From NCBI GenBank assembly GCA_017934955.1, contig JAGBIO010000026.1, positions 1 to 57,674 on the forward strand: 57,674 nt of DNA, written 5' to 3'. A program made the position numbers and the translations under genes. Every line of letters starts with the position of its first letter. Position 1 is the stretch's first letter. A model generated the notes under the pieces. That model was not told the origin of the DNA. It saw only the letters and a list, made by a program, of their open reading frames with translations, and searched no databases. This document shows positions 1 through 57,583 of this stretch, in pieces. The stretch is from Clostridia bacterium. Lineage in GTDB: Bacteria; Bacillota; Clostridia; TANB77; RGIG9151.

Positions 1-870
1 CAAGATCATTACTTTGATGGGACTTGTTGCGATTGCGGTTATACGAAACCGGAAGAAGAGTGTGAACATAACGATTATCGAGATGACTACAGCGGAAGAA
101 GCGAATATACGGGAAGTTATAATGAAGAACAGCATGAAGTGAGGCATTATTACAACCGTATCTGTAATCGTTGCGAAGAGTTTCTTGGAGAGATAACCGG
201 AGATGAGTGGCAAGATCATTACTTTGATGGGACTTGTTGCGATTGCGGTTATACGAAACCGGAAGAAGAGTGTGAACATAACGATTATCGAGATGACTAC
301 AGCGGAAGAAGCGAATATACGGGAAGTTACGATGAAATGCAGCATGAAGTAAGGCATTATTACAATCGTGTTTGTGTCAATTGCGGAGAAATTCTGAAAG
401 AGGTAACAGAAAGTGAATGGCAATATCATGATTTTATTGGAAAACAATGTGGCTGCGGCTACGAAAAGTCGGAGGAAAGGTACGAACACGAAAGATATCG
501 TGATGATTATAATCTGACCTATTATACCGGAAGGTATAACGAAACGTATCATGAGGTGGAACACCATTACAACCGTATCTGTAAAGATTGCGGAGAGTTT
601 CTTGAAGAGGTAACGGTAAACGAATGGTGTGATCATTACTTTGAAGGAACTCGATGCGGTTGTGGATATGTGATGGAAGTTATAACAGAGTGTTCTCATC
701 ATAATGCACAGTATCTTTATGCGAATCATTCCGAGTATAGTGGAATTTTTGACGTAGATGGACATAATATCGCAGATTACTATAATCTTTATTGTTATGA
801 TTGTTCTACGGTAATTGAGGAAAATATTCCGAGTTATCGATGGGAAGAACATAATATGTCTGGAAGTAGT
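1..870 (+). repeat. 210-bp tandem repeats encoding Cys-pair modules
   Basis: The DNA repeats with a 210-base period: the sequence starting at base 1 recurs almost unchanged at 211 and, more diverged, near 421 and 631. Each unit encodes about 70 residues with YNRxCxxC, DEWxxHxF and CxCGY motifs. The first two units are nearly identical at DNA level, which points to recent unit duplication; the array probably extends upstream of the window. Confidence 0.85.
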
Positions 871-3153
871 TGTGCATGTGGCTATACGGCAGAAATTCCG
901 CAGGATGATGTGCATGAGTGCCACTATGTGAGGGAATATTTTGAGACTCGTTATATACCAAACGACGAAGCTACCCATAAAGTAATTGTGAACTATATGG
1001 ATACTTGTTCCTGCGGGAATTTTTCCGGTTCCAAAACGGAAATCTCTATTGAGCAACATAATTTTACCGGCGAACTTTGCGGAGTATGCAACTATAAAAA
1101 ATTGTCCTATCTTTCGCATATTTCGGAGGGGGTTGTACTGAAGGTTGGAGATATTGCGTTTTATGTTGACGGAATTCCCTCTTATTTACCGACTGCACCT
1201 AAAATTGTGCAGAACAAGCTGATGGTGCCGCTACAGTCTGTTGTGGAAGCAGTAGGCGGTTTTGTCGGATGGAGTGGAGAAAATGCGTATGTTTGGCTGA
1301 ATAAGCAGGAACAAGCAGGATTTTGTTGTGATGATTTTAAGGTAAGAAATACCGATGTTGTGCAGGAAGTTGCACCTTATGTCGAAAACGGTGTAATGTT
1401 CGTAGAGCTCACTGCAATTGCAAAAATTGCCGGCTTGTACGCAAATTACTACGACGGGTATGGTTTCTTGAGTTCGAATTGGTACGAAGCAGATGAAATG
1501 AAGAATTTTGCAAAAACTTATTATAACGCTACTTTCGAGCGTTTTGAGAAAGAGCCGGAAATCGGTGTTGCAAATTCTAATTCTTGGATTTCGATTCGTA
1601 TCAATGAGTTACGTTCTTATCAGTCTGCCGCAAAAGATGTTATGGATAGCGGCATAATTTCGTTGGAGTGGTTTTCAGAGATTTACTCTGAATTAGATGA
1701 CTTGATAAAAGAATATCAAGAGATCGAAAACGGAATACGTACCATCGAAGAAGTAAGCGAACAGAAGTTTTCTTATGTTGCTAAAAACGGAACGACATCT
1801 GCGACAGTGAAGGAAATTCAAGAGAAGCTGGTGGATTTGGGTTATTCAAGTCAATTGGTTACCGGTTACTATGGAGCAATAACCGCAAATAATATTGCGT
1901 ATTATCAGCTGATAAATGGTCTGTATGTAAACGGTTGGGTTGATGAAGAGACTTATTATCTGCTTTGCTTTGACAGTGACGCTGAGGTGGAGTATGAGAA
2001 ACCGTTTACGGAGGCTCCGTGGGGAAAAATTCTTAACTTCCCGTGGGATAAGCATTATACGGTACGTGAAGAAGTTACGCTACAAACGGATTTTGACTCC
2101 AATGCGAAGGCAGTATATGTCCAATTCTTGAATCCTACGGCAAACGATTTGCTGGAAAAGCCGGTACCGTTTCAGTGGGAAGTGAATCTTACCACAAAAG
2201 AAGCGAAGGGCGTAATTGAAAGATGTGGTTATTACGACTGTTATATTTATGTAGTGAACGAAGACGGAAGGATTTTGAAACAATACGTAGAAACTATTAA
2301 TGTTGACCGCAGCAAACGCAGTTTGTTTATCATGCAACTGTCGTTGGATTACTGGAAGGGCTTTATTGAGGCACTAAAGGATAATTTGATGGGATTGGGA
2401 TACATTATCGAACTTGGTGTCGATATGGGCGTTACCGGATTTAGTAATCTTGGAAACTTGATTACCGGAAACAGTGATAAGCTGAAAAAGCCGGAAGCGA
2501 CAAAGATTGCAGAATTCTACGGAAAAGCTGTCTTTTTTGCGAAGAGCGAAGAACGAAGGATTATGCAGGAAGTCTTCCAAGAAACCGTAGCCGAAATCGG
2601 CGACAAGATTGTGCATGCGAAACAAGCAGACGCCGAGTGGGCGCTTGGTTATGTTACGGGAGACATTATCTTTGCAATTGCACTTAGTAAGGGCGTTAAC
2701 AAAATCGTCGATTCGATAAGCGATACCGGAAAAACAGCCGGGAAGGTTTTGGAGAATGCGGATGATTTGAGTAAGGCGTCTTTGCAGAGGGCGAGTCAGA
2801 GCGTTAAGGCAGGAATCGGGAACGCGGAAGATGTTGGCAAGGTTGCACGATATGGAGAAGAATTTGGTAAGATGGGGGTATATGTTGAGAATCCTAATAT
2901 TAAAGTAAACTGGTCTGAAATTTCAATTCATGGAATGCTTCGTATGGAACAAAGAGGAATTAATAAGGAATTAATAGACCAAATTGTTAATAGTGGAAAA
3001 GTGCTTTCTCAGAATGGCGGAAGCAAATATGCTTATATAACCAGAGAAGGTGTGGCGATTGTGAGCAAGGAAGGAAAATTGATTACAGCTTGGAGTAGCA
3101 CTGAATTTGACAGTAATATGATAAATGTGATAAGAAGATTGTTTGGGGAGTAG
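1..3153 (+). CDS. Polymorphic-toxin-like secreted protein, 5' end outside window
   Basis: The reading frame is open from base 1, so the gene begins upstream; the first GTG at 139 is only an internal codon. Domains seen in order: tandem ~70-residue repeats with paired Cys motifs (CxxC and CGCGY/CDCGY, zinc-ribbon-like) over roughly the first 300 residues; a copper-amine-oxidase-N-like stalk domain (about bases 1130-1480); a peptidoglycan-binding-like segment (about 1795-1970); a long helical pre-toxin region (2330-2880); and a C-terminal domain with H-x-x-x-RM-x-QRGI and a terminal beta-rich part, resembling DUF4258-type toxin domains. This order (surface repeats, wall binding, pre-toxin, small C-terminal domain) followed by a tiny gene is typical of contact-dependent polymorphic toxins. 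Toxic activity is inferred, not shown. No signal peptide can be checked because the N-terminus is missing. Confidence 0.75.
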   Translation, partial: QDHYFDGTCCDCGYTKPEEECEHNDYRDDYSGRSEYTGSYNEEQHEVRHYYNRICNRCEEFLGEITGDEWQDHYFDGTCCDCGYTKPEEECEHNDYRDDYSGRSEYTGSYDEMQHEVRHYYNRVCVNCGEILKEVTESEWQYHDFIGKQCGCGYEKSEERYEHERYRDDYNLTYYTGRYNETYHEVEHHYNRICKDCGEFLEEVTVNEWCDHYFEGTRCGCGYVMEVITECSHHNAQYLYANHSEYSGIFDVDGHNIADYYNLYCYDCSTVIEENIPSYRWEEHNMSGSSCACGYTAEIPQDDVHECHYVREYFETRYIPNDEATHKVIVNYMDTCSCGNFSGSKTEISIEQHNFTGELCGVCNYKKLSYLSHISEGVVLKVGDIAFYVDGIPSYLPTAPKIVQNKLMVPLQSVVEAVGGFVGWSGENAYVWLNKQEQAGFCCDDFKVRNTDVVQEVAPYVENGVMFVELTAIAKIAGLYANYYDGYGFLSSNWYEADEMKNFAKTYYNATFERFEKEPEIGVANSNSWISIRINELRSYQSAAKDVMDSGIISLEWFSEIYSELDDLIKEYQEIENGIRTIEEVSEQKFSYVAKNGTTSATVKEIQEKLVDLGYSSQLVTGYYGAITANNIAYYQLINGLYVNGWVDEETYYLLCFDSDAEVEYEKPFTEAPWGKILNFPWDKHYTVREEVTLQTDFDSNAKAVYVQFLNPTANDLLEKPVPFQWEVNLTTKEAKGVIERCGYYDCYIYVVNEDGRILKQYVETINVDRSKRSLFIMQLSLDYWKGFIEALKDNLMGLGYIIELGVDMGVTGFSNLGNLITGNSDKLKKPEATKIAEFYGKAVFFAKSEERRIMQEVFQETVAEIGDKIVHAKQADAEWALGYVTGDIIFAIALSKGVNKIVDSISDTGKTAGKVLENADDLSKASLQRASQSVKAGIGNAEDVGKVARYGEEFGKMGVYVENPNIKVNWSEISIHGMLRMEQRGINKELIDQIVNSGKVLSQNGGSKYAYITREGVAIVSKEGKLITAWSSTEFDSNMINVIRRLFGE

Positions 3154-18620: not shown

Positions 18621-20999
18621 ATGACAAAAGAGCAAATAGATCGTTTAATAGGAGCAGTTCAATGCGGAGACCGTAAAGAATTAGCGAAATTTATCAGTGA
18701 TATTAAATTAAGAAAAGATTATTTAACCTCATGGAGAAAAGATTATGATACGGAACATAAAATAGAAATAGCAGTTTATAGAGATATAATGGCTCAAATT
18801 GAAAATGACGGGTATGAATATTTTTATTCTAAAACATTAGAAGATGAGAGTGCAAGGGAACTTTTAACGGGTCTTCATGATCCGGAAAAGATCATGAGAT
18901 GTTTTGAAGATTCGGATGAGTTGGAATTTGATAATTGCGACAAAATAGAAATGATAAAATCAAGCCGAGATGTAGGTTTGATAAGAGCGTGTTTAGAAGG
19001 GAAAATAGATGGCGTAAGACCTGATGATGAGCAAAAACTTCGTTTAATTACTGCAAGCAGAGATATCGCCTTTATGAAGGAATGTATTGCAGGAGATGTG
19101 AAAGTTAGACTTAGTAAAAAGGATAAACAGGTTTTAATTGCATCCAGCGGAGATATAGAGTTTATAAAAGAATATATAGAAGGGAAACTGAAAGGCGTAA
19201 GACCTAATGACGGTGATAAAAGGCACGTATTGGAAATGAGTGGAAATGTAGATTTAATAGCGAGTTGTATTGAGGGAAAGTTAAAGGGTTATAACCCAAA
19301 TGATATGCATAAATTCTATTTGATGCTGCCGGTCGTTCAAGAGTTGGATGATGAAGTAAAGTTAACGGTTCTAAAAGGGAGAGTGCATGAAAACGATCAA
19401 TTAGGAGAAATTTTAGCGACTTTTTCTTCGCTTAGCGAAGAATGTAAAAAATATTTTGAGGAATATTTGGCTTATCGTAGATTACCAACGGATAATTTAG
19501 AGTTACCTTTTAAAATACTTACGAATTTAGGTCCGGAAGCATTTGGCGGGGACCGTGCTAAAAAAAGGTTAGCACCTGAAGCGATAAATGCTTTAGGAGA
19601 AGAAACCATATATTCGCTATTTAATTATAACGCAGCTTCTTGGGCAGTTGATCGTAAGGCTATAGAGATAGATAAAATTATAGAAAATCCGGAAATGTTT
19701 CATGCGTATGAACAATTTCGAAGAACATTTGCCCAAGAACAACCAACACAATTTATGGATAAAAGAAATGCGATAACAGAATTTAGCAAATATGCCTCGC
19801 TAATCGGCGAATGTTTGAGCGGACCGTTGACTTCGGAGGAAACTGCAATATTACAAGCAGTATTACAAGATGGGCAAGTGCAAATAAATTCAAAAGAAGA
19901 ACTTCCTGCTTTTCCTGAAAAACGAAAGGAAATGGTAGAAGAATTAATCGGTGACGATCCATATAATGCACTTTGTTACTTATTGACAGGGAAGAATTCT
20001 ACGGAATATTACTTTGTAAATGCTGGACAGCTTACCAGAGCAATGCAAGATTTTGGTAAAGAAAGTGCGGATTTTGCGATAACAAAAGCGTTGAATGAGT
20101 TCATAGAATTAATCGGTGGAGGAATGTCAGTCACTCAACAAAAGAAAGTGCTAAGAGCGTATAATAATGATTTGCAAAATGAATTTACTGCGGAAGGTTC
20201 TCAAGTAGCAGAATTTAGAAAAGCGTTTAGAGATATAGAACTTCAAATTAGAAGAATGTATGGAAAGGAGTTAGCAGATACTTTAATAAAAGATGAATTA
20301 CCGCATGGAGAAGCAGATGAGAAAGGAAATGAAACAATCCAATTAGCAGGAGAAGATTTTAAAATGCTTGTGTGTGGGATAGATACATATAAACAAGGTA
20401 CCGGGAATTTTGCTCAAATGGCACGGGGAAAAAAATATATATCTACGACGTTGATTTCGGAAAAACACTTGAGCAAAGCAGGTGCTACTAGATATTATGG
20501 ATTTAGAAATATCGGTGAGAATGCTTTGGTTACAGAAAGCAATTATGCAAAATATCCGCATCCGCTGACGGAACTTGAAAGAGAAAGTGAGTTTTTTTCT
20601 GCGGATAAGTTATCAGAAAATAATCAAGTTAATCAAGTTATGTTGAGGCGTGAGTATTTAGGCGATGATGGGAAAATGCGTGACATAACGCCGGATTATA
20701 TAGTTTGTTTTGATGGTATGATAGATGACGGAGATAGAGAAGAAGCAAAGCGATTAGGCGTACCGATTGTAGTAATTAATACACAAGAATACGAGAAAAG
20801 GGTGAAAGAAAATAGCGAGGAAAAAGCAGAGCCCGCGGTAGAAGTTCCTGCAGAATATGAAAATACAAAGAAGGATATGATGGACATTCTAAGAAATGCA
20901 AGAAAGAAATGTACTGTAAAGTCGCAACGTGTTGCTATGGGCAAAATTATAGCGGAAATGGAGAAGGAATTGCAAGCAGATAAGAATATGATGCATTAA
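18621..20999 (+). CDS. Unrecognised 792-aa repeat protein, effector-like
   Basis: Not recognised. No signal peptide or membrane segment. Residues ~110-240 contain four ~36-residue repeats, each with a core like SRDIxFIKxCIEGKLKGVRPND. A long helical middle (250-560) follows, then a mixed C-terminal domain (570-730) with FKMLVCGIDTYKQGTGNFAQMARGKKYISTTLIS and PDYIVCFDGMIDDGDREEAKRLGVPIVVINTQ, and a charged coiled-coil tail. The final domain looks enzyme-like but no catalytic motif can be named. It heads a three-gene operon; the base composition and strong AAAGGAGG site fit a resident gene. An intracellular or delivered effector is only one option. Confidence 0.75.
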   Translation: MTKEQIDRLIGAVQCGDRKELAKFISDIKLRKDYLTSWRKDYDTEHKIEIAVYRDIMAQIENDGYEYFYSKTLEDESARELLTGLHDPEKIMRCFEDSDELEFDNCDKIEMIKSSRDVGLIRACLEGKIDGVRPDDEQKLRLITASRDIAFMKECIAGDVKVRLSKKDKQVLIASSGDIEFIKEYIEGKLKGVRPNDGDKRHVLEMSGNVDLIASCIEGKLKGYNPNDMHKFYLMLPVVQELDDEVKLTVLKGRVHENDQLGEILATFSSLSEECKKYFEEYLAYRRLPTDNLELPFKILTNLGPEAFGGDRAKKRLAPEAINALGEETIYSLFNYNAASWAVDRKAIEIDKIIENPEMFHAYEQFRRTFAQEQPTQFMDKRNAITEFSKYASLIGECLSGPLTSEETAILQAVLQDGQVQINSKEELPAFPEKRKEMVEELIGDDPYNALCYLLTGKNSTEYYFVNAGQLTRAMQDFGKESADFAITKALNEFIELIGGGMSVTQQKKVLRAYNNDLQNEFTAEGSQVAEFRKAFRDIELQIRRMYGKELADTLIKDELPHGEADEKGNETIQLAGEDFKMLVCGIDTYKQGTGNFAQMARGKKYISTTLISEKHLSKAGATRYYGFRNIGENALVTESNYAKYPHPLTELERESEFFSADKLSENNQVNQVMLRREYLGDDGKMRDITPDYIVCFDGMIDDGDREEAKRLGVPIVVINTQEYEKRVKENSEEKAEPAVEVPAEYENTKKDMMDILRNARKKCTVKSQRVAMGKIIAEMEKELQADKNMMH

Positions 21000-22613: not shown

Positions 22614-24002
22614 ATGCCGAATATGGATCCAAAGAAAACAGCGATGCCGGTTCAGGAGCCGAATGTAAGAAATAAGAATTTTAATGAAGTAGCACTCGGT
22701 TATACCTATGAACAGGCAGTGAACGAAGCAAAAAGATGTTTGAATTGTAAAAATAAACCTTGTCAGTCTGCGTGTCCGGTTGCAATCGATATTCCTTCTT
22801 TTATTGAACGTGTGGCGAATGAGGATATGGAGGGAGCGTATAAGATTATTTCGGAATCGAGTTCTCTTCCTGCCGTTTGTGGTCGTGTTTGCCCACAGGA
22901 AAATCAATGTGAGGGAAAATGCGTGAGAGGAATTAAGGGCGAACCGGTTGGAATCGGTCGTTTGGAGCGATTTGTAGCGGATTACCATAGAGAACATTCG
23001 ACGGCGAAAGCAGAAGTCCCGGAATCAAACGACCATAAAGTTGCGGTAATTGGATCGGGTCCTTCGGGATTGACGGCTGCCGGTGATTTGGCAAAGTTAG
23101 GCTATAAAGTAACGGTATTTGAAGCGTTACACTTAGCCGGCGGTGTTTTGGTGTATGGTATTCCGGAATTCCGTTTGCCGAAGTCGATTGTGCAGAAGGA
23201 AATCGACAACTTAAAGGATTTGGGCGTTGATATTGAGACGAATATGGTTATCGGAAAGGTAATTACCATTGATGAACTTTTCGATATGGGCTATGAAGCG
23301 GTTTATGTTGGTTCAGGTGCAGGACTTCCGAGATTTATGGGAATTCCGGGCGAGAGTTTGAACGGCGTATATTCCGCAAACGAGTTCTTGACGAGAATTA
23401 ACTTGATGAAATCATATAGAGAGGATTCTAAGACACCGATTCAACATGGTAAGAATGTGGCGGTTGTCGGTGGCGGTAACGTGGCAATGGATGCGGCGAG
23501 ATCGGCGAAACGTCTTGGTGCGGAGAATGTGTATATTGTGTATCGTAGAGGTATGGAGGAGCTTCCGGCACGTAAAGAAGAAGTGGAACATGCGGAAGAG
23601 GAAGGCATCATCTTTAAGACCTTAACGAACCCGATCGAAGTGTTAGGGGACGAGAATGGAAAGGTAAAGGGTATGAAGTGTGTTGAGATGGAGTTGGGAG
23701 AACCGGATGAGAGCGGCAGACGCCGTCCTGTGGTGAAACCGAATTCCGAGTTTGTTTTGGATATCGATACCATGATTATGTCCATCGGTACAAGCCCGAA
23801 TCCGCTCATTCGCAGTACGACACCGGGTTTGGAGACAAACAAACATGGCTGTATTGTGACAAACGGCGATGACGGCTTGACAACGCGTGAAGGTGTATTT
23901 GCCGGCGGAGATGCCGTTACCGGTGCGGCGACAGTTATCTTGGCGATGGGTGCAGGAAAGCATGCGGCAAAGGCGATTGATGAGTATATTAAGAATAAAT
24001 AG
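22614..24002 (+). CDS. nfnB: NfnB-like / glutamate synthase small-chain-type oxidoreductase
   Basis: 462 residues, one base after the stop of nfnA, with AAGGAGG nine bases before the ATG. N-terminal [4Fe-4S] cysteines (CLNCKNKPCQSACP and CGRVCPQENQCEGKC), FAD site GSGPSGLTAAGDLAKLGY, NADPH site GGGNVAMDAARSAKRLG and the C-terminal GDAVTGAATVILAMGAGKHAA. Protein alone could be read as the small chain of glutamate synthase, but no large chain is present and pairing with the preceding gene fits NfnAB. Confidence 0.9.
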   Translation: MPNMDPKKTAMPVQEPNVRNKNFNEVALGYTYEQAVNEAKRCLNCKNKPCQSACPVAIDIPSFIERVANEDMEGAYKIISESSSLPAVCGRVCPQENQCEGKCVRGIKGEPVGIGRLERFVADYHREHSTAKAEVPESNDHKVAVIGSGPSGLTAAGDLAKLGYKVTVFEALHLAGGVLVYGIPEFRLPKSIVQKEIDNLKDLGVDIETNMVIGKVITIDELFDMGYEAVYVGSGAGLPRFMGIPGESLNGVYSANEFLTRINLMKSYREDSKTPIQHGKNVAVVGGGNVAMDAARSAKRLGAENVYIVYRRGMEELPARKEEVEHAEEEGIIFKTLTNPIEVLGDENGKVKGMKCVEMELGEPDESGRRRPVVKPNSEFVLDIDTMIMSIGTSPNPLIRSTTPGLETNKHGCIVTNGDDGLTTREGVFAGGDAVTGAATVILAMGAGKHAAKAIDEYIKNK

Positions 24003-24008
24003 AGTAGA

Positions 24009-24047
24009 AGGTGAAGAGTCTCAAGGGAGATTTTTCACCTTTTTTTG
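24009..24047 (+). terminator. Terminator after nfnAB
   Basis: AGGTGAA/TTCACCT stem followed by TTTTTTT. Confidence 0.75.
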
Positions 24048-24048
24048 T

Positions 24049-24255
24049 TGTATAGGAAAAATCGAAGATTTTGCCTATACAACAAAAACGCTCCGCAGGG
24101 AAGCACACTCGCACGAAAGGAAAGTTGCTCCGCAACTCGTGCTCGGCGCAGAGTGTTTTGCTTTCGCAAAACACTTTTCTTATATAGGAAAAATCGAAGA
24201 TTTTGCCTATACAAAAATGCTCCGCGAGGATGCACACTCACGCGTAAGGAAAAAG
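24049..24255. repeat. Two direct ~70-bp repeats with internal palindromes
   Basis: TATAGGAAAAATCGAAGATT continuing to TGCCTATACA occurs at 24050 and 24181, each followed by a GCTCCGC..GCACACTC..GGAAA tail. Each TATAGG..CCTATA half is itself an imperfect palindrome. Between them lie the hairpins GTTGCTCCGCAAC and AGTGTTTTGC-TTTC-GCAAAACACT. No convincing gene on either strand. Confidence 0.75.
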
Positions 24256-24265
24256 GTGCAAACAA

Positions 24266-24337
24266 TGTAGGGACAGCATTCATGCTGTCCACAGAGAAGG
24301 CAGAAAAGCAGGACAGCATAAATGCTGTCCCTACAAT
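24266..24337. repeat. Inverted pair of GGACAGCAT palindromes
   Basis: TGTAGGGACAGCAT..ATGCTGTCC, a 20-bp spacer rich in A and G, then GGACAGCAT..ATGCTGTCCCTACA. Outer arms TGTAGGG/CCCTACA are themselves inverted repeats. Confidence 0.85.
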
Positions 24338-24426
24338 AGACTGAGAAACATTTAAGGTACATATATAAGGTTAAGTCTGGCAAGAAGGGAGTTATTGGGC
24401 GACTCTCTTCTTTTTTTGACACTTTG

Positions 24427-24455
24427 TTGACTTATGTAAATATCGGTGATACAAT
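24427..24455 (+). promoter_or_regulatory. Promoter of the first paralogue gene
   Basis: TTGACT, 17 bp, TACAAT. The leader that follows can fold: AGCCAC near the start pairs with GTGTGGCT, enclosing CCCGTTATTGGG, and ends in TCGACGTAAAAG before the AAGGAG site. The promoter at 34831 has the same plan. Confidence 0.7.
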
Positions 24456-24540
24456 ATAGCCACGTGCAATATTTCGATATTCCCGTTATTGGGAAGGATG
24501 TGTGGCTGTATAATCGACGTAAAAGAAAAAGGAGCAAAGT

Positions 24541-25083
24541 ATGATGTTTTTCAACTGCTTAATGATGGTCGTAATCCTTTTGACAATTTTGGTGCTTGCT
24601 AAAATTGCGAAATTTCTCTTGTTTTACATTCGTTGCAAGCGGTGTCTAAGTGAAATTGAGACGTTTAGTCAGCTCTTTCTTGTGCAATCGTATCGGGTGC
24701 AAAGAAAGAATGACAAAGTTCATTATGTGTTAACCTTTCGTGACAAGCTTTTTTTGGACGGTCTTCCTATTAAAACGGGGCGTATCAGAATCTTTCGAGT
24801 TATTCGTTTGTTTGAAAGCCTTGTGAATAAGCAAGTAATTCTTCCTCAAGAAGGAGAAACTCTCATAATGCGTTTTGATAAAATGAAACTGATTCAAACG
24901 TTGTTTGAAAGTTCGCAAAAAGGCACCTCTTTAATGGGGGAATACGAAGCACGAAGTGCGTTAACTCGACAGCTGCTGTCTCATGACTATTCCTTGCTTA
25001 AATCAAATTGTGATTTGTTGGTGGAGGAGTGTGAGTACCTTAGCAAAGAATATGAAACAGTTGTAGCATTCGGAAATGGTTGA
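24541..25083 (+). CDS. Membrane-anchored coiled-coil paralogue 1
   Basis: 180 residues, unrecognised. N-terminal membrane helix (residues ~5-30), then a cytosolic part with LFLVQSYRVQRKNDKVHYVLTFRD, which matches the LFLV-x-SC-x-x-x-x-K..FY pattern of the four relatives downstream, a strand around RFDK, and a C-terminal helix likely to form a coiled coil (SLLKSNCDLLVEECEYLSKE). First of a tandem group of five. The AAGGAG site and the GACGT motif precede the start. Confidence 0.75.
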   Translation: MMFFNCLMMVVILLTILVLAKIAKFLLFYIRCKRCLSEIETFSQLFLVQSYRVQRKNDKVHYVLTFRDKLFLDGLPIKTGRIRIFRVIRLFESLVNKQVILPQEGETLIMRFDKMKLIQTLFESSQKGTSLMGEYEARSALTRQLLSHDYSLLKSNCDLLVEECEYLSKEYETVVAFGNG

Positions 25084-25115
25084 ACATAAAAAGGCAGCAT
25101 AAAGGAGAATGCAAT

Positions 25116-25634
25116 ATGATTCTTTATTTAGAAATTATTGCCGTAATTCTGCTTTTATCGTACTATCTCGGCTGGTTTATTCATGACTATGTTCTTTATC
25201 GGATCTATACTCAGGCCATGCAGCTGGTAGGGTATCTTTTCCAAGTATCTTCCTGCATTATTGAGGAAAAGGAGAATACTTCTTTTTACACCCTGTATTT
25301 TACAGAAGATACGGATATTCCGGAAAAGAAGTTGCAACCGGTTATTGGCGTATTTAAGCAATTTTATCTAAAAGGGGCAATTGTCTCTTTAGAGGAAGAG
25401 GGGGCTGAGTTCGTTCCGTGCTTTTATCGTGATCTTATGAAGGGAATTATGGAGGAACTTATAAATTCTTCGGCAAAATTGATTTGTGACTATTGGGAAT
25501 GGGATTTTATCACAAGATTTCTATTGGAGAAAAAGTATAACGATCTTCAAAAAGCACTTGAGGAGTTTGCAGAACAACATGAAAGGGTTTGCCAAGCAGC
25601 ACCCGGCAGCTATTTTTGTATAAATTCAGAGTGA
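25116..25634 (+). CDS. Membrane-anchored coiled-coil paralogue 2
   Basis: 172 residues from the ATG with AAAGGAG eight bases upstream; a TTG twelve codons earlier gives an improbable basic extension. Membrane helix MILYLEIIAVILLLSYYLGW, family core LFQVSSCIIEEKENTSFYTLYFTEDTDIPE split by a short loop, FVPCFYRDLMKG, and a C-terminal coiled coil (KKYNDLQKALEEFAEQHE). Separated from paralogue 1 by 32 bases and followed by a terminator, so the two form one operon. Function unknown. Confidence 0.75.
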   Translation: MILYLEIIAVILLLSYYLGWFIHDYVLYRIYTQAMQLVGYLFQVSSCIIEEKENTSFYTLYFTEDTDIPEKKLQPVIGVFKQFYLKGAIVSLEEEGAEFVPCFYRDLMKGIMEELINSSAKLICDYWEWDFITRFLLEKKYNDLQKALEEFAEQHERVCQAAPGSYFCINSE

Positions 25635-25649
25635 GGAAAAAATCGTAGG

Positions 25650-25678
25650 GGAGTTTTCATCGAAAACTCCTTTTTCTT
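25650..25678 (+). terminator. Terminator after paralogues 1-2
   Basis: GGAGTTTTC/GAAAACTCC stem then TTTTTCTTT. Confidence 0.85.
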
Positions 25679-25679
25679 T

Positions 25680-25859
25680 GGTACAATTCAGACTCAAATT
25701 TATAAAGATGGCACAAACACCGTAGGGACAGCATTTATGCTGTCCTGCTTTTTCCATGGACAGCATAAATGCTGTCCCTACAAGATGGCACAATCATTGT
25801 AGGGGAGGCGTCCTCGACGTTGCAATATATTTGCAACAATTTTAAGTCTGACTTGTAAC
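25680..25859. mobile_element. MITE-like composite element
   Basis: Left end GGTACAATTCAGACT, right end AAGTCTGACTTGTAAC (imperfect inverted repeats). Inside: an inverted pair of GGACAGCAT palindromes (25721-25782) and a GGGGAGGCGTCCTCGACGT palindrome (25800-25820). Same plan as 34627-34814. Confidence 0.8.
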
Positions 25860-25873
25860 TTTTACAAAACAAA

Positions 25874-25902
25874 TTGATTTTTTATGTCTACTGATGTATA
25901 AT
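25874..25902 (+). promoter_or_regulatory. Promoter of paralogue 3 / VanW operon
   Basis: TTGATT, 17 bp, TATAAT. The leader has a GAG..CTC hairpin and ends in GGACGTTGAAAGGAG. Confidence 0.75.
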
Positions 25903-25972
25903 AGTAATGGCATGCTTATTACTTTGAGTTTTTGGGGGAATCCTCAAGACGGACGTTGAAAGGAGAAAAAAC

Positions 25973-26581
25973 ATGACGTTGCTTCAGTTTGAAATCATTA
26001 TTTTTGTACTACTCGCCGGATACTGTTTGATAAAGTATTTGTACGAAGGGTATTTTTACTCGCTGTGTACGGAGGAGATTTCTTTGACACAAGCTCTTTT
26101 TCTGGTTACTCATTGTACTTTTATGGAAAAAGATGAGGTTAACGGAGAATGGACTCGTTACCAGTTAGAGTTTAGCCCTGATGTGAAGCTGGTTTCCTAC
26201 AATGAGTGGATTTGCTATATTTTGAATCCGAGAGACGCAATTTGGAATGGTGCTGTGCTTCTGCCGAAGAGTAAACTTCTGGAAATCGAGTTGCAATTTG
26301 ATGAGTTTATTCGTAGTGATATCATCGAATTGGAGGAGGACGATAACGGCTTTGTTCCGTTTTTTTATCGGGATAACCTGAAAAAAGAACTCTACGAAAC
26401 AAAAGAAGCTGCTGCGGCCAGAATCTATGATTACCTGCAACAAGACTTTATTGCTCAACTTCTGCTTGGAAAAAAGCATGAGGTTCTTTTGAAGCAGTAT
26501 GAAGAACTGGATAAGCAGTACAAGGCAGTTTGTCGCGTAGAGCCGGGTACGAAATTCCGGATGGTTTTGGAGAAGAACTGA
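25973..26581 (+). CDS. Membrane-anchored coiled-coil paralogue 3
   Basis: 202 residues. Membrane helix (residues ~6-25), core LFLVTHCTFMEKDEVNGEW, a longer middle than the relatives, DNGFVPFFYRDNLKKEL matching the FVPCFYRD motif, and a C-terminal coiled coil (LLKQYEELDKQYKAVCRVEPG). The last part aligns with AAPGSYF of paralogue 2 (VEPGTKF here). Starts an operon with the VanW protein and paralogue 4. Confidence 0.75.
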   Translation: MTLLQFEIIIFVLLAGYCLIKYLYEGYFYSLCTEEISLTQALFLVTHCTFMEKDEVNGEWTRYQLEFSPDVKLVSYNEWICYILNPRDAIWNGAVLLPKSKLLEIELQFDEFIRSDIIELEEDDNGFVPFFYRDNLKKELYETKEAAAARIYDYLQQDFIAQLLLGKKHEVLLKQYEELDKQYKAVCRVEPGTKFRMVLEKN

Positions 26582-26599
26582 GAAAGAGGTTAAACAACA

Positions 26600-27634
26600 A
26601 TGGGTAAGAAACTGCTTTTGGCCTTGGTTATGTTGCTATTTTCCGTTCCGGTATTGGCGGAAGAAATGCGCGTAGAGGAGCTTTTAGAGGAGCTCTATAT
26701 GGAGGAACATTTCGAGCCGATGTATGCGGAAGGGGTTGTTTTGGTAGATTCGGCATTATACATTCGTAAGAAGCCTTTTTGCGATAGTGATATCGTCGGA
26801 AAGCTGTATCACGGCGATGGGGTATTTATTACGGGGAAATGCAACGGATACTACAAAATCAACGAAGATCAGTATATCAGCGAGGAGTATGTCTACGTTT
26901 CGGACAAATATTCCGCTACCGGTGTTTTTATTTCAGAGAATATGAAGTATCTTCGGATTAACTACATGGGACGAATTGACACAAAGGTTTCGGCTTCTTC
27001 TGTTACAACCGGTATTTCGATGTGTTTCTCGGGGGAAATTCCGGTATATGCTGTAGTAGATGGGTATGCCTACTTTCCGCGAGGCAAAAAAGATATTTTT
27101 AAACTTTCAGTGGAGTCTTTTGCGGAGTTAGAGCCGGTTGGTGAAAAACACGACTTGCTGACTGCTTACCGTACTACCTACAGTACCGGTGGAAAAAATG
27201 TCTCAAGGGCGCATAACATTGAACTGGTAACAGCCTATATTGACGGAGTTGTGATTAATCCGGGTAAAACATTTAGTTTTAACGGAATTGCCGGTTCGCG
27301 TTCTAAATCGAAGGGGTATCAGTTAGCGCCTGCATATCAAGGGGAAGAGGTTATTCAAGCCTATGGCGGTGGCGTCTGCCAAGTATCTTCTACGATATAT
27401 TCGGCAGTACGTCAATGTACCGGGATTGCAATTACCGAAAGAAAACCTCATAGTATGCGGGTAGGTTATCTTTCAGAGGATTTTGAGGCTACAGTTAATT
27501 ATAATAACGTAGACTTTAAATTTATGAACAACTATGCTTTTCCTGTGAAACTCTCTGTTCGTGCAAAGGACGGCGTACTGCTTGTGAAATTGTATAAATG
27601 CAAGGACGTTGAAAGGAGCAAAATATGGCACTGA
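26600..27634 (+). CDS. VanW-domain secreted protein with SH3-like domain
   Basis: 344 residues. Signal peptide MGKKLLLALVMLLFSVPVLAEE; an SH3-like segment at residues ~45-105 (DSALYIRKKPFCDSDIVGKLYHGDGVFITG); then the VanW domain (INPGKTFSFNGIAG, GGGVCQVSSTIYSAV, ERKPHSMRVGY) to near the end. VanW proteins accompany some vancomycin-resistance clusters and many clostridial surface genes; their reaction is unknown, action at the cell wall is inferred. Its end overlaps the start of paralogue 4, and paralogue 3 lies 18 bases upstream, so it is part of the paralogue operon. Confidence 0.9.
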   Translation: MGKKLLLALVMLLFSVPVLAEEMRVEELLEELYMEEHFEPMYAEGVVLVDSALYIRKKPFCDSDIVGKLYHGDGVFITGKCNGYYKINEDQYISEEYVYVSDKYSATGVFISENMKYLRINYMGRIDTKVSASSVTTGISMCFSGEIPVYAVVDGYAYFPRGKKDIFKLSVESFAELEPVGEKHDLLTAYRTTYSTGGKNVSRAHNIELVTAYIDGVVINPGKTFSFNGIAGSRSKSKGYQLAPAYQGEEVIQAYGGGVCQVSSTIYSAVRQCTGIAITERKPHSMRVGYLSEDFEATVNYNNVDFKFMNNYAFPVKLSVRAKDGVLLVKLYKCKDVERSKIWH

Positions 27635-28140
27635 TTCAGTGCATGATTGTTGCCGCATTTCCGCTGGCGATTTGTCTTGGAATTAAGGTTGGAGTACTTT
27701 ATTTCCGTTATCGATTTTCGGTTAAGGAGCTTTTAATCCTGCAACATCTTTTTCAGATTGAGAGTTGTACGGTTGAAGGGAAAAAGATTAATTTGACGAT
27801 AAAAAACAGCGTCCTTCCGGATAATCTTCGTCGAGCTTTTTATCTTTGCTTTAACGGACTTTTACAAACAAAAATTGTTACGGTTGCAAAAGAGAACAAT
27901 ACGGGGCGTTTTATACCGTGTTTTCAACGGAAAGGATTTGAAGATTTGCTTGTTACAAGCTTGTTTAATGCAGATCGCATTCAGAAAAAATATAAGGAAC
28001 AAGGGACTTATGTTCAAGTTCTGTTGGAGGATTATTATACCTATTTGAAACAGTTGTATGATGATTTAGAACAGAAGTACCTTAACATTAAAAGCCTTTC
28101 GGAAGAAGTTGAAATAATTACTATACGACCGAAAAGCTAA
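27625..28140 (+). CDS. Membrane-anchored coiled-coil paralogue 4
   Basis: 171 residues. The ATG overlaps the vanW stop by ten bases; its GACGTTGAAAGGAG site lies inside the end of vanW. Membrane helix (~3-25), core LFQIESCTVEGKKINLTIKNSVLPDN, FIPCFQRKGFEDLL, and a C-terminal coiled coil (YLKQLYDDLEQKYLNIKSL). No known domain recognised. Confidence 0.75.
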   Translation: MALIQCMIVAAFPLAICLGIKVGVLYFRYRFSVKELLILQHLFQIESCTVEGKKINLTIKNSVLPDNLRRAFYLCFNGLLQTKIVTVAKENNTGRFIPCFQRKGFEDLLVTSLFNADRIQKKYKEQGTYVQVLLEDYYTYLKQLYDDLEQKYLNIKSLSEEVEIITIRPKS

Positions 28141-28145
28141 GCTTT

Positions 28146-28175
28146 GGCGTATCCTTTTGGGATACGCCTTTCTTT
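28146..28175 (+). terminator. Terminator after paralogue 4
   Basis: Perfect stem GGCGTATCC/GGATACGCC then TTTCTTTT. Confidence 0.9.
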
Positions 28176-28182
28176 TATTGAG

Positions 28183-28211
28183 TTGACGAAATATGTTAGT
28201 TTGTATATAAT
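28183..28211 (+). promoter_or_regulatory. Promoter of paralogue 5
   Basis: TTGACG, 17 bp, TATAAT; the leader ends in GGACGTTAAAAGGAGG. Confidence 0.75.
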
Positions 28212-28313
28212 GTTATATATCAAAAAACTTAAGAATCAATCTATATCTATAGAAAGAGGAGCGATATTTACTACAGTATTATTATACGATATGGACGTTA
28301 AAAGGAGGTCAAT

Positions 28314-28829
28314 ATGAGCTTAACACTATGCTTGCTTATTGCTTTAGTGCCGGTAGCAATCATTTGGTATTATCGCTTTCGGCGCTGCGAAGGGCGCTGT
28401 ATGAAGCTTTTTAGGAATGTTATATTACTTCGCTATTTGTTTTTGGTAACTTCTTGTTCGATTCATAAGACAAAGAAGAAAACCTTTTACGCGGTGACAT
28501 TTTCTGAGGAAGATTTGCCGGAAAACATGAACAAAGCTTTTTATAGATTACTGGAAGCTTTTTTGAAAGACGGTATTATTGTTTACGATAGTAATCATGA
28601 TCCGTTTGTGCCTCGTTTTGACAAAGAAATGCTTTTGGGAGTTATGGACTTTATTATGGAAAAGGTTGAAGAAGAATTCGAAGAATTTTCTAACGAAGAT
28701 AGGTTTTGTCAGCTTTTGTTGACGGAATTGTATGATGAACTTAGTGAGATGTTGCAAGAATTGGAAACCGGCTATTCAAAGATTAAAGAAATGCCGAATA
28801 AAATCATTTGTTTTGCGGAAGAACAGTAA
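28314..28829 (+). CDS. Membrane-anchored coiled-coil paralogue 5
   Basis: 171 residues, single-gene unit with its own promoter and terminator. Membrane helix (~3-20), basic stretch, core LFLVTSCSIHKTKKKTFYAV and FSEEDLPENM, DPFVPRFDKEML, and an acidic C-terminal coiled coil (EKVEEEFEEF; LSEMLQELETGYSKIKEM). Closest in plan to paralogues 2 and 4. Confidence 0.75.
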   Translation: MSLTLCLLIALVPVAIIWYYRFRRCEGRCMKLFRNVILLRYLFLVTSCSIHKTKKKTFYAVTFSEEDLPENMNKAFYRLLEAFLKDGIIVYDSNHDPFVPRFDKEMLLGVMDFIMEKVEEEFEEFSNEDRFCQLLLTELYDELSEMLQELETGYSKIKEMPNKIICFAEEQ

Positions 28830-28837
28830 ACTTTAAG

Positions 28838-28868
28838 CGTATCCTATTACGGGATACGTTTTCTTTTT
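28838..28868 (+). terminator. Terminator after paralogue 5
   Basis: CGTATCC/GGATACG stem then TTTTCTTTTT. Confidence 0.85.
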
Positions 28869-28942
28869 GATGTTGACTAATAAAGAGACATTTAAAAACA
28901 TAAATTATTTTACCACATTTTGTTGGTACTATTTGGTATATG

Positions 28943-28998
28943 AGAATTTCCCCTTTTCTGTTAAGTTAAGAATTAGAAAACAGAAAAGGGAGAATTCT
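28943..28998. repeat. Long imperfect inverted repeat
   Basis: GAGAATTTCCCCTTTTCTG and CAGAAAAGGGAGAATTC face each other across a 20-base A/T loop. A small open frame across it (28867-29061) has no ribosome site and is not called. Confidence 0.7.
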
Positions 28999-29056
28999 TT
29001 GTTGTATTTATTTGACTCACAGCCAGATATACCGAATCCGCACGAGTTCTTCTTTA

Positions 29057-29416
29057 GTTAATGAGGTAATAATAGACTTGTAGCAGGACAGCATGAATGC
29101 TGTCCCTACAAAACACATTCTGACGATATTTTTCAAGAGATACAAGATTATAGTCTGCCCCAATGTCATTAACTTAAGAATTTATCTAATTCATTCTTAC
29201 GATATTTTTGGGTATCTCTATTTGTTTGTAGGGACAGCATTTATGCTGTCCTAACTCTACGCATCTACGTATATATTTTTTGGGGAAAAAATGAATGTTG
29301 TTCTGCCTATTCCACGGACACCATGAATGGTGTCCCTACAATAATTTTATGCCTTTATTTCGGTAGAGTTTAATAATTCAGTTCTTAACTTAATGACATT
29401 GAGTCTGCCCTGTAAC
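29057..29416. mobile_element. MITE-like composite element, interrupted by a second element
   Basis: The right end AGTCTGCCCTGTAAC (29402-29416) resembles the GTTAC..AGACT family ends; one GGACAGCATGAATGCTGTCC palindrome lies at 29084-29103. The right end is split by the element at 29161-29401. The left boundary is approximate. Confidence 0.6.
29161..29401. mobile_element. MITE with 20-bp terminal inverted repeats and 9-bp target duplication
   Basis: Left end CAATGTCATTAACTTAAGAA, right end its reverse complement with one mismatch (29382-29401). AGTCTGCCC stands directly outside both ends (29152-29160, 29402-29410) as a 9-bp target duplication. The 241-bp interior encodes nothing but carries a GGACAGCAT palindrome and a GGACACCATGAATGGTGTCC palindrome. 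Confidence 0.88.
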
Positions 29417-29659
29417 TTGTTTCTGAAGAGGAGTGCTGAAACGTATGAAAAAATTGAGGATGTATAATTGAATTATGAAAACAAAAAGGGAAGAAGTAAT
29501 AACATATTGTACAAATCATGCAAAACAAATTTGCATAAAATCGATTTTGCGTAATTTGTATGGTAAAATATTTATAGGCAATACATGTGCATACTTCGCA
29601 AATAAAGCGAAGAGACGTACAACTACTACAAGAGGTAGAAGAAAAAGGAGGAAAAAAAT
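29417..29659. other. Leader region without called gene
   Basis: A/T-rich. Contains the hairpin CTTCGCAAATAAAGCGAAG and a GAGACGTACAAC stretch upstream of the next gene's AAAAAGGAGG. A 62-codon frame (29475-29663) rich in Arg/Lys/Thr has no ribosome site and looks spurious. No clear promoter identified. Confidence 0.5.
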
Positions 29660-30046
29660 ATGATGCTTCGGTACAATGGTAGTCGGGAAAATGGGTATTT
29701 CACCTTCTCGGGTGATCCCGCGCAGCTCGTTCCCGGTCAGGTCTACAAGCTCCTTTCTAAGGTGGTTCACGCCTGGCATACGGAGTACTTCCTGGAAGGT
29801 ATTCCGGGAAGCTTCAACTCCGTATGGTTCGACGAAGTCGACGATGAGACGGAGCCGAAGGTTTTCCTGGCACTTGCGAAGGAAGTCCCCGTAGTGGGAG
29901 AGCGTTACGAGTGCTGGAAGATCGAGTCCAACGCTCAGGTTGTTTGCTGGTCTACCAGTCCGGTGGTGAACATCAAGGTGATCCGCACCGCTTTGCTGCA
30001 AGTGACGACTCGCAACAGCATCTATCTGGTGCAGATGATTTGTTGA
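29660..30046 (+). CDS. Unrecognised 128-aa protein with GC-richer codons
   Basis: AAAAAGGAGG eight bases before the ATG. Predicted mostly beta strand, no membrane helix, contains GDPAQLVPGQVYKLL and WHTEYFLEGIPGSF. Codon use differs sharply from its neighbours: many G/C third positions (for example CTC GTT CCC GGT CAG GTC TAC), suggesting foreign origin or unusual translation demand. It lies convergent to a tyrosine recombinase and shares a terminator with it, which fits an acquired gene. No family recognised. Confidence 0.7.
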   Translation: MMLRYNGSRENGYFTFSGDPAQLVPGQVYKLLSKVVHAWHTEYFLEGIPGSFNSVWFDEVDDETEPKVFLALAKEVPVVGERYECWKIESNAQVVCWSTSPVVNIKVIRTALLQVTTRNSIYLVQMIC

Positions 30047-30100: not shown

Positions 30101-31105
30101 TTATGAATCAGCTTCTTTGTTTTGTGCAATGTCTTTTTCCTCTTTTTCAAAATCCGCAAGAGGATTGTTGTCAATTGCTTTCTGTAACTGTTCTTTATTG
30201 ATATGTGTGTAGATCTCGGTTGTGGCAACACTTTCGTGGCCGAGGATTTCTTGTAACGACCGGATATCTGCATTCCCATATTGATACATCAATGTCGCCG
30301 CTGTATGACGTAACTTATGTGGCGAATATTTTTCGGTATCCAGTCCTGCCATACCGATGTATTTTTTTACAATATATTGAACCGTTCTTCGACTGATGCG
30401 TTGTTTTCGTTCACTTAGAAACAACGCATTTTTTTCTTTTAAATTCTCCTTCGGACGGACGCGCATATATTCGTTTAGAGCCGTTTTGCAAGCATTGTTA
30501 ATATAAACAGTCCTCTCTTTATTACCCTTGCCTATAACGGTCATTTTGTCGTCCTTAATTTGATTGACGTTCAAACTCACTAATTCCGAGAGTCTCAGGC
30601 CACAGTTTAGAAAGAGGGTAATAATCGCATAGTCACGTTCCTTATTATCGCCGTCAATAGCGTTTAACAGCTGTTTGCTTTCGTCGATATTTAAGTATTT
30701 CGGTATACGTTTACCAAGTTTCGGAGCCTCGAGTTCCTTTGCAGGATTGACTTCCAGCAGTTTTGCCTTAGTAGTAAGGTAATTAAAGAAGGACTTTAAC
30801 GACGCAACTTTTCTGGCACGAGATGCAACTTTATTGGACTTATCGATACTTAAATAAGACATATACGCATATAAATCACTTAGGGTGATTTTTTTAATGA
30901 AGTCTAAATCGATATCCAAAATCGAGATGGAATCGAATTCGGTATCCGGTTTTACAACACGATAATGAATCTTCAGAAACCGAAAAAAGCTTCGTAAATC
31001 GTAATGATATTCGTGAATTGTATTGATAGATTTGCCTTTAATGGTATCCATGTAACTAAGGAAATCCTGAGCAATAATGGGTAAATCGAAATAATCTGCT
31101 TTCAT
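30101..31105 (-). CDS. Tyrosine recombinase / phage-type integrase
   Basis: 334 residues from the ATG with GGGAGG six bases upstream; the frame extends 14 codons through an inverted repeat that is more likely regulatory. N-terminal SAM-like domain (10-115) and catalytic domain with R171 (NCGLRLSEL), K near 193, H263/R266 (PHKLRHTAATLM), H290 (LGHESV) and Y299 (TTEIYTH). It is distinct from the XerD gene in this window. Catalytic set intact, so probably active. TTTTGTGCAAT occurs both in its upstream inverted repeat and near its 3' end. Confidence 0.88.
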   Translation of the reverse strand: MKADYFDLPIIAQDFLSYMDTIKGKSINTIHEYHYDLRSFFRFLKIHYRVVKPDTEFDSISILDIDLDFIKKITLSDLYAYMSYLSIDKSNKVASRARKVASLKSFFNYLTTKAKLLEVNPAKELEAPKLGKRIPKYLNIDESKQLLNAIDGDNKERDYAIITLFLNCGLRLSELVSLNVNQIKDDKMTVIGKGNKERTVYINNACKTALNEYMRVRPKENLKEKNALFLSERKQRISRRTVQYIVKKYIGMAGLDTEKYSPHKLRHTAATLMYQYGNADIRSLQEILGHESVATTEIYTHINKEQLQKAIDNNPLADFEKEEKDIAQNKEADS

Positions 31106-31117
31106 TACTACCTCCCA

Positions 31118-31143
31118 TTGCACAAAATTTTTATTTTGTGCAA
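31118..31143. promoter_or_regulatory. Perfect inverted repeat upstream of the recombinase
   Basis: TTGCACAAAAT, TTTT, ATTTTGTGCAA: perfect 11-bp arms, 13 bases from the recombinase start and 36 from the divergent gene. Operator, recombination site or terminator are all possible. Confidence 0.6.
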
Positions 31144-31178
31144 TCATGTATATTTTTCAAATCGAAAGGAGAAACCTC

Positions 31179-34859: not shown

Positions 34860-34987
34860 ATAAATAGCCAAAAGCTTTTTATTTTCTGCATTTTGTTGCG
34901 GAAGGATGTTATATCTTAAATAAAGATATTTCTATATAGTTTGGGCTGTTCCTTTACGACCGACGCCGTATGGCAGAAAGGAAAGTT

Positions 34988-35341
34988 ATGTTAAACCGAC
35001 TTTATCCGTTGGGAGTTTTCGTATGGTCCTATCGCTACTTGTGGGGATGTGTGCTCCTCACAGGAGTTGCGACGAATATGTATTTTTCGCTTGAAAAACT
35101 CTATCAACAGTGGAGACTCAGACACTTCTTTGCCACTCTAAAAAAGTTTGGTGAGACCACCGAGTGGTACCTTGAAGATGACCTCCTGATCATTCAGGTC
35201 AGCGATGGTGCTTCAGAAGAAGTGATCTTCCACAAAAGGCTAAAGGAAGAAGAGCTGGAAAGGCTTTATGAAATCGGCGTGATGAGAAAAAAACGATTCG
35301 TTATCCCGGAATATGCTCAGTTCTTCCATTATGGGAAGTGA
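34988..35341 (+). CDS. Unrecognised 117-aa membrane-anchored protein, possible distant paralogue
   Basis: The ATG at 34988 has AGAAAGGAAAG before it; an in-frame ATG at 34970 would place that site inside the gene. N-terminal hydrophobic helix (VWSYRYLWGCVLLTGVATNMYF), then LKKFGETTEWYLEDDLLIIQV and RFVIPEYAQFF. The order helix, strand-rich core, RFVIP-like motif recalls the five paralogues at 24.5-28.8 kb without their coiled-coil tail; promoter and leader are alike too. The relation is inferred. Confidence 0.65.
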   Translation: MLNRLYPLGVFVWSYRYLWGCVLLTGVATNMYFSLEKLYQQWRLRHFFATLKKFGETTEWYLEDDLLIIQVSDGASEEVIFHKRLKEEELERLYEIGVMRKKRFVIPEYAQFFHYGK

Positions 35342-54739: not shown

Positions 54740-55927
54740 CTAAATTGCAATTTGATAAGGATTTTCACTCGTTCCGTCCCCTCCCACAATTCGAATTCCG
54801 GATTTCAGCGTAATTACGGGACGCACCCCGTACCCCAGCGAATAGGCATCAAAGCCCCCGTCCGAGTACAACTGATACAAGCCGTTGCCGTCGAATTGGA
54901 CGTTGTAGTGCACGGTACCGACTGCGTCCACAATGAGCACGCCGAAATACGAGTAGCTGCTGTTGGTTTTCAACATACGAGAATCGAGCCATACGCTCCC
55001 ACTCACGCGGAGCGGATAGTTCTCTCCGTCTTTTGTGTTTAATAATCGAATATCTTCTTTATTACATGAATCTGTATATGGAAAACCATTATTTCCATTC
55101 GTATATGTCTCTTCAAATGTAATCGGATATTTACTTTCATCAATCGTTCCAACTCCATTTCCATATCCCAAGCATCTTCCGCTTGTCGCATAGGTCGGAT
55201 TCACATATTCGCGACACAACCTGTTTAATATATCTATCGCGTAGATATACCCAGCCTTTCCTGTTAGTCTTAAGTCTCCAACGCTTTCTGCACTGATGAT
55301 TTCTAAATAATCACCATCTGTTGTATTCTTAAATACTTTCCAACTGGTTACGCTACTTGGGTTAAAAACTTGGTCAACCCCTGTACCGCTATCTCCTCCG
55401 GATACAATATGTTCTGTAGATGTCGGTTGATACATTATATAAGACCCTAATTCAACATAGTTCCATTTTGCATATAAAGTATGATCTACTGTTTTCGTCA
55501 TGCTTGTTTCACTTGTTACCGGCTCTGTTAATTCACTATCCGCGTACCAGCCTTGAAAAACATGTCCGTTTTTCGTCGGAGTAACTAACGTTCCATAGGT
55601 TTCTCCATACGATAATAGCTTACTACTTACCGTACTTCCTCCGTTACTTTCAAACGAAACCGTACATAACTTCTCTATGGTTATATCCACATTTCCTTCC
55701 GGCATTACAATCTGACGACGATTTCCTAATACTCTTAATATCGCATTTCCGCTGTTTACCGTATATTCCGCCGGCGAACGATCTCCTAACGCTATCTTTA
55801 CTGTCTTCCCTGTCTCTACTTCTCTTGTCGTTGTTTCATCTTGTGCATGAAGCGTTAAGGTATAACCGAAGGAAATACCCGTTAACAAGAATACCGCAAT
55901 TGCCATACTTACTATTTTTTTCATCAT
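54740..55927 (-). CDS. Secreted InlB-repeat / DUF6273-like protein, variable C-terminus (copy 1)
   Basis: 395 residues. Signal peptide (KKIVSMAIAVFLLTGISFGYTLTLHAQ), a short beta domain, one InlB B-repeat/Listeria-Bacteroides repeat (VSFESNGGSTVSSKLLSYGE .. TLYAKW, residues ~90-155), then a DUF6273-like lectin-fold domain ending in GVRPVITLKSGIRIVGGDGTSENP. Nearly identical to the copy at 56392 except in codons for residues ~305-370 (bases about 54850-54990), which are also GC-rich. There the differences fit adenine-directed mutation, as in diversity-generating retroelement targets. GGGAGG before two ATGs. Confidence 0.88.
   Translation of the reverse strand: MMKKIVSMAIAVFLLTGISFGYTLTLHAQDETTTREVETGKTVKIALGDRSPAEYTVNSGNAILRVLGNRRQIVMPEGNVDITIEKLCTVSFESNGGSTVSSKLLSYGETYGTLVTPTKNGHVFQGWYADSELTEPVTSETSMTKTVDHTLYAKWNYVELGSYIMYQPTSTEHIVSGGDSGTGVDQVFNPSSVTSWKVFKNTTDGDYLEIISAESVGDLRLTGKAGYIYAIDILNRLCREYVNPTYATSGRCLGYGNGVGTIDESKYPITFEETYTNGNNGFPYTDSCNKEDIRLLNTKDGENYPLRVSGSVWLDSRMLKTNSSYSYFGVLIVDAVGTVHYNVQFDGNGLYQLYSDGGFDAYSLGYGVRPVITLKSGIRIVGGDGTSENPYQIAI
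54815..54992 (-). other. Variable region of copy 1
   Basis: From the VWLDSR codons to GVRPV. Differs from copy 2 at about 25 bases plus a six-codon insertion; almost all substitutions in the core occur where one copy has, or a common template could have, A on the coding strand (for example CAC TAC AAC against AAC AAC AAC; ATT/TAT; GAC/AGC). Confidence 0.6.
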
Positions 55928-57561: not shown

Positions 57562-57583
57562 TTTTCCTCCCTCTCGAAACCAT

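Follow-up and report, generated by a model that had tools for sequence, protein, structure and literature searches.

Within the window, the whole 57,674-nucleotide stretch of DNA that was analysed, positions 24541 to 28829 are filled exactly by an array of five paralogous genes, termed P1 to P5, that surround a vanW gene. The array begins with the start of P1 and closes with the stop of P5, and the tandem arrangement around vanW reported in the original prediction is confirmed with exact coordinates:

24541–25083, plus strand: P1, a paralogue of 180 aa and the most divergent member.
25116–25634, plus strand: P2, a paralogue of 172 aa and the central member; structure modelled.
25973–26581, plus strand: P3, a paralogue of 202 aa with about 24 extra residues relative to P2.
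26600–27634, plus strand: vanW, with a signal-peptide-like N-terminus, an SH3-like stretch and a VanW domain that contains Cys260 and His284.
27625–28140, plus strand: P4, a paralogue of 171 aa whose first 10 nt overlap the end of vanW.
28314–28829, plus strand: P5, a paralogue of 171 aa; structure modelled.

P1 and P2 are separated by 32 nt and P3 and vanW by 18 nt, and the placement of the P4 start 10 nt inside the end of vanW bears out the earlier statement that vanW is locked into the middle unit by overlap. The proposed division into three transcription units with separate terminators (P1–P2, P3–vanW–P4 and P5) likewise agrees with predictions from consensus matches. A scan of positions 23900 to 29700, whose sites are consensus matches rather than mapped transcripts, returned 22 promoter-like sites against 15.6 expected, the three best of which (matching 11, 10 and 10 of 12) precede P5, P1 and P3. 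The same scan found 19 terminator-like hairpins against 4.2 expected, with one located 3′ to each of P2, P4 and P5. The predicted elements of the three units are:

24427–24455, plus strand: promoter-like site of unit 1, TTGACT-17-TACAAT with TG before the −10 element; consensus match only.
25647–25673, plus strand: terminator-like hairpin after P2, from the hairpin scan.
25874–25902, plus strand: promoter-like site of unit 2, TTGATT-17-TATAAT.
28146–28168, plus strand: terminator-like hairpin after P4, from the hairpin scan.
28183–28211, plus strand: promoter-like site of unit 3, TTGACG-17-TATAAT, 11 of 12.
28835–28861, plus strand: terminator-like hairpin after P5, from the hairpin scan.

There is no pointer to a recent import of the array: the GC content of P1–P5 (36–40%) is like that of the window (38%), and the stretch between P2 and P3 contains a palindromic repeat that is native to this genome.

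Several other features of the window and its genome can be recorded. The palindromic repeat, with core GGACAGCATNNATGCTGTCC, is present in 630 copies with at most one mismatch in the 1.57-Mb genome (0 in the reversed control) and occurs 18 times exactly in the window (24271, 24311, 25726, 25758, 29086, 29232 and 12 others), frequently as closely spaced pairs reminiscent of REP/BIME elements. A second palindrome, with core TATAGGAAAAATCGAAGATTTTGCCTATA, has two copies after gltA (24043–24085 and 24175–24217). Further along the window are a tyrosine recombinase (30101–31147), which is XerC/XerA-like at scores below the curated cut-offs, and a tandem of two proteins of 395 and 401 aa that resemble each other closely and look secreted (54740–55927 and 56392–57597), which by eye share a repeat like that of bacterial surface proteins and have variable C-terminal parts. 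On the other side of the array, a 792-aa protein (18621–20999) has no Pfam match at E ≤ 0.1 and no NCBIfam match at E ≤ 0.001. A large protein that is open at the window edge (1–3153) displays Cys/His-rich repeats together with peptidoglycan-binding and copper amine oxidase-like domains, and ends in a weak DUF4258-like segment (15.3 bits, cut-off 25).

Sequence comparison identifies P1–P5 as true paralogues that are old and much diverged, which upholds the view of the array as a local expansion. In full-length local alignments, all ten pairs score above each of 500 shuffles (z 6.2 to 31.5), and 9/10 pairs still do so once the first 35 residues are removed, so the similarity extends beyond the membrane helix; the exception is P1–P4, whose score is then reached by 10 of 500 shuffles. 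Pairwise identity ranges from 21 to 36%, and the tree of the five proteins has long branches and no starred fork, so that the pairs P2+P3 and P4+P5 are likely, but no more than that. Among 108 comparisons of fourfold sites at identical residues, the third base is the same in 43, compared with about 31 expected from composition (the pairs not being independent), and the coding DNA is thus near saturation. A 123-aa membrane ORF of no family at 34970–35341 has a similar layout, yet is not counted as a sixth member: each of its five pairwise scores against P1–P5 is reached by 57 to 370 of 500 shuffles, and profile comparison gives a probability of 0.1%.

The motifs that were said to be common to all five proteins are present in part. 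A hydrophobic helix begins at residue 1 or 2 in 5/5 members, as expected of the N-terminal membrane helix that had been proposed. The LFLV-x-SC core exists in a looser form than stated, reading LFLVQSY, LFQVSSC, LFLVTHC, LFQIESC and LFLVTSC in P1 to P5, respectively. The (F)VP-x-FYRD motif is exact in P2 and P3 but is replaced by FIPCFQRK in P4, FVPRFDKE in P5 and LIMRFDKM in P1, and the Lys-rich loop is found in P1, P4 and P5 but not in P2 or P3. The supposed C-terminal coiled coil is predicted instead to be a helical hairpin packed within a three-helix bundle.

Upstream of the coding regions, four of the array genes appear to share a leader that is newly described here for this array. Its near-exact copies are as follows:

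25951–25965, plus strand: leader GGACGTTGAAAGGAG before P3, a sequence match.
27604–27618, plus strand: leader GGACGTTGAAAGGAG before P4, which also codes for C-terminal residues of VanW that lack a counterpart in close homologues.
28293–28307, plus strand: leader GGACGTTAAAAGGAG before P5, with one mismatch to GGACGTTGAAAGGAG.

At P3 and P4, the leader sits 6–7 nt upstream of the ATG. Across the genome, GGACGTTGAAAGGAG with at most one mismatch occurs only before P3, P4 and P5, and allowing two mismatches adds two further matches, against three in the reversed control. P1 is preceded by a looser GACGT form, and P2, the second gene of its unit, has no leader. A leader pattern written post hoc, and therefore of descriptive value only, has five matches in the window, four of which precede P1, P3, P4 and P5. 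By these comparisons the leader is better conserved than the genes behind it. Since a near-exact leader persists while fourfold sites are near saturation, it has been kept by selection or by conversion, and regulation is probably shared. The copy before P4 resides within vanW, coding for residues near the end of the protein, and the VanW homologues from six inspected neighbourhoods stop some 8–10 residues earlier; the vanW–P4 junction therefore looks like a duplication scar.

To obtain a view of the protein fold, AlphaFold2 was run on the five-row alignment of P1–P5, with P2 and P5 modelled. Both models display the same layout (pLDDT 84.4 and 85.4, pTM 0.72 each), in which a helix spanning residues 2–41 or 2–43 is predicted to be followed by a beta hairpin, a helix at 70–85, a short strand and a two-helix hairpin that extends to residue 159. 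From the ranges of the matches in VIA, the later half of helix 1 and the C-terminal hairpin probably form a three-helix bundle. A designed three-helix bundle heads the VIA lists (Z 10.5 and 9.4), and the rows below it include BAG domains, spectrin repeats and CorA, all of which are common arrangements; for helical bundles, a Z below about 13 may reflect nothing more than such an arrangement, and a family missing from these structural match lists is not thereby excluded. Foldseek against the PDB gave no match at E ≤ 0.001 for either model, as did a search of a viral library with the P2 model. Structural rows for PadR and MecA were weak and were set aside.

The bundle most likely faces the cytoplasm. 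Under the positive-inside rule, the basic flank of a membrane helix stays inside, and the 15 residues after the best 19-residue hydrophobic window are basic in P1, P4 and P5. The corresponding flanks of P2 and P3 are mixed or weakly charged, leaving the topology of these two members uncertain. A high cysteine content also fits a cytoplasmic location: P1–P5 contain 2.5–3.5% Cys, compared with a median of 1.3% among the 51 window ORFs kept by an overlap filter, and all five are among the seven most Cys-rich of these. EzrA and ZipA, which are anchored cytoplasmic adaptors of the N-out/C-in type, similarly combine a single N-terminal membrane helix with a cytoplasmic part, although no family match links them to P1–P5 and the comparison is one of layout only. 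A type IV pilin-like identity was considered for P2 and P3, which have a Glu early in the helix, and was rejected: the type IV pilin motif is a basic leader with Gly before the helix, whereas here the helix starts at residue 1–2 and there is no leader peptide.

The original prediction did not recognise the family, and nothing convincing emerged from any library searched. P1–P5 have no Pfam match above cut-off (best E 0.02), no NCBIfam match at E ≤ 1 and nothing convincing among PDB sequences (best E 0.17), and P2 has no match among phages and plasmids at E ≤ 1. No plain housekeeping family came out of the profile searches. Pattern-based scans, which reach only loci that have short peptides in common with the query, gave no relative of P3 in GTDB contigs, and with the P2/P3 alignment they were likewise empty in both GTDB contigs and IMG/VR viral contigs. 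In profile searches of overlapping genome samples, matches were obtained in 3/57 relatives at E ≤ 0.01 (the own genome and two chance matches), in 2/385 genomes of the order at E ≤ 5e-4 (the own genome and one chance match), and in the own genome only among 391 genomes of the class and 398 of the phylum. The matches attributed to chance are those in G034 and G037 (E 0.002), within a long surface-protein-like frame (read at locus L012; L013 has the same span and score), and that in G086 (E 1.2e-4), a 223-aa ORF that reads by eye as a HAD-type phosphatase. A match of P3 on contig C13 of G000 (E 0.035) was rejected for the two stops inside it. Literature searches turned up no paper recognisable as an account of such an array. 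The P1–P5 family is real and old and, within the reach of these searches, lineage-restricted; because the samples include only one other congeneric genome and a single further representative of the taxonomic family, restriction to the species is indistinguishable from restriction to a family that is poorly sampled.

The same two genomes provide a view of the corresponding site. In the one congeneric genome and the one other of the family (G001 and G002), the gltA gene that adjoins the array is 77% and 76% identical, respectively, and is followed by an ileS-like gene in G001 and a truB-like gene in G002 (names read from the ORFs), with no array. G001 contains no member of the P1–P5 family anywhere at E ≤ 10, and G002 has one weak match only (E 0.048), in a 342-aa ORF taken as unrelated.

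The protein encoded between P3 and P4 is probably an LD-transpeptidase, a cell-wall cross-linking enzyme, judging from its domain and conserved residues. It matches PF04294 with 142.4 bits, above the curated cut-off of 27, and its SH3-like stretch scores 21 bits, below its own cut-off of 27. Cys260 and His284 are present in 15/15 aligned VanW rows, representing 11 distinct genes, although the row filter includes the Cys position in its motif and the His count alone is unbiased. These rows comprise 8 of the 19 loci L015–L033, all six neighbourhood genes and the window's own gene; the remaining 11 loci did not pass the filter, which required a complete plus-strand ORF with the motif. According to a 2025 review, the VanW proteins of C. 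difficile were recognised in 2024 to be LD-transpeptidases that have a Cys-His-small-residue triad, and some VanW proteins are without this activity (PMC12729407); a second, concordant source counts two VanW enzymes in C. difficile (PMC11986978). By analogy with that description, Cys260 and His284 may correspond to the triad residues of LdtCd4 (PMC12729407). The window protein has the same domain as LdtCd4 and LdtCd5 (PF04294) and the conserved Cys and His, but those enzymes are reported to carry PG4 domains and a membrane anchor (PMC12729407), whereas the window protein begins with a signal-peptide-like segment, contains a single SH3-like stretch and has orphan neighbours.

VanW itself is widespread, with matches in 56/57 genomes (the own included), the best of which are in the family designated f4, a member of the same taxonomic order. 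There, SH3-VanW proteins (L034, L035, L038 and others) are 36–47% identical across the greater part of the protein or across its VanW part, and the genes around them read from the ORFs as smc-, LemA- and HtpX-like or as helicase- and tsaD-like, with no paralogue family. The expected co-occurrence with VanW elsewhere was not borne out, as the P1–P5 family is absent from 6/6 inspected f4 neighbourhoods of close VanW relatives; this comparison has little power, because no other occurrence of the family turned up anywhere.

Tentatively, the locus may be read as encoding membrane-tethered cytoplasmic adaptors under shared regulation, one unit of which also makes a probable LD-transpeptidase. An old tandem array of a lineage-restricted family would, on this account, produce proteins in which one N-terminal membrane helix runs into a three-helix bundle with an inserted beta-hairpin/helix unit, and these adaptors could assemble through their bundles, alone or together, at sites of envelope growth. 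Transcription of the middle unit would also yield the secreted VanW, an enzyme of the LD-transpeptidase type that would cross-link peptidoglycan on the outside; a link of P1–P5 with VanW beyond shared transcription is an inference. Direct contact between VanW and the cytoplasmic bundles is disfavoured, because the signal-peptide-like N-terminus of VanW would place its action outside, and most of the array appears to be independent of the vanW unit, since P1–P2 and P5 have predicted promoters of their own.

Near-equal to the adaptor reading stands the possibility that P1–P5 are orphan genes, expanded or gained beside gltA, that serve an unrelated lineage-specific membrane role, and that vanW was caught between copies by duplication. 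An accidental link of this kind accords with the VanW neighbourhoods devoid of P1–P5 relatives, with the array-less gltA sites of G001 and G002, and with a P4 leader that forms the end of vanW, as a trace of the junction would. It is less easily reconciled with a vanW that is still intact and in frame within its unit, or with a leader conserved while the coding sequence approaches saturation. An extended form of the adaptor reading, in which a five-part membrane-tethered set with a fold arrangement unmatched in the libraries searched positions or licenses the VanW LD-transpeptidase across the membrane, its expression tied by a family-specific leader that has outlived coding similarity, is unlikely.

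More doubtful still is the earlier suggestion that P1–P5 are surface proteins or phage/bacteriocin defence proteins under diversifying selection. Strong divergence among neighbours (21–36% identity) and confinement to a single genome of those searched are features that such proteins might display, but no PADLOC family was matched by any of the five members at E ≤ 1, PHROGs gave only weak single-member matches (E 0.026 and 0.14), and the charge pattern points inward in 3/5 (P1, P4 and P5). Diversifying selection is unsupported, given that divergence with synonymous sites near saturation needs no special selection. The least probable reading is that P1–P5 share the fold of ribosome recycling factor (RRF) and, tethered to the membrane, act there on ribosomes or RNA. 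In its favour, RRF has the same order of elements (helix 1, an inserted beta/alpha unit, then helices 2 and 3), takes first place in the Foldseek list for P2 (1eh1, E 0.16), recurs for P5, and supplies 11/50 VIA rows for P2 and 9/50 for P5 (counting ribosome-entry chains taken as RRF). Against it, the VIA superpositions of P5 (1eh1 over 125 residues at 4.2 Å, Z 6.9; 6vud over 121 residues at 4.1 Å, Z 7.1) have Z values near 7 that are unremarkable for helical bundles, plain bundles score higher, the Foldseek rows lie outside E ≤ 0.001, no RRF family in Pfam matches P1–P5 at E ≤ 1, three members (P2, P3 and P5) are acidic, with net charges of −8 to −12, and P1–P5 differ in having a membrane helix in front.

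As a discovery the array is of modest value, but as an observation it is solid: an old paralogue family whose leader has been kept better than its genes. The positioning and regulation of VanW-type LD-transpeptidases seem still to await explanation, their activity having been recognised only in 2024 (PMC12729407). If the array does work with VanW, P1–P5 would be candidate partners of a VanW-type LD-transpeptidase.
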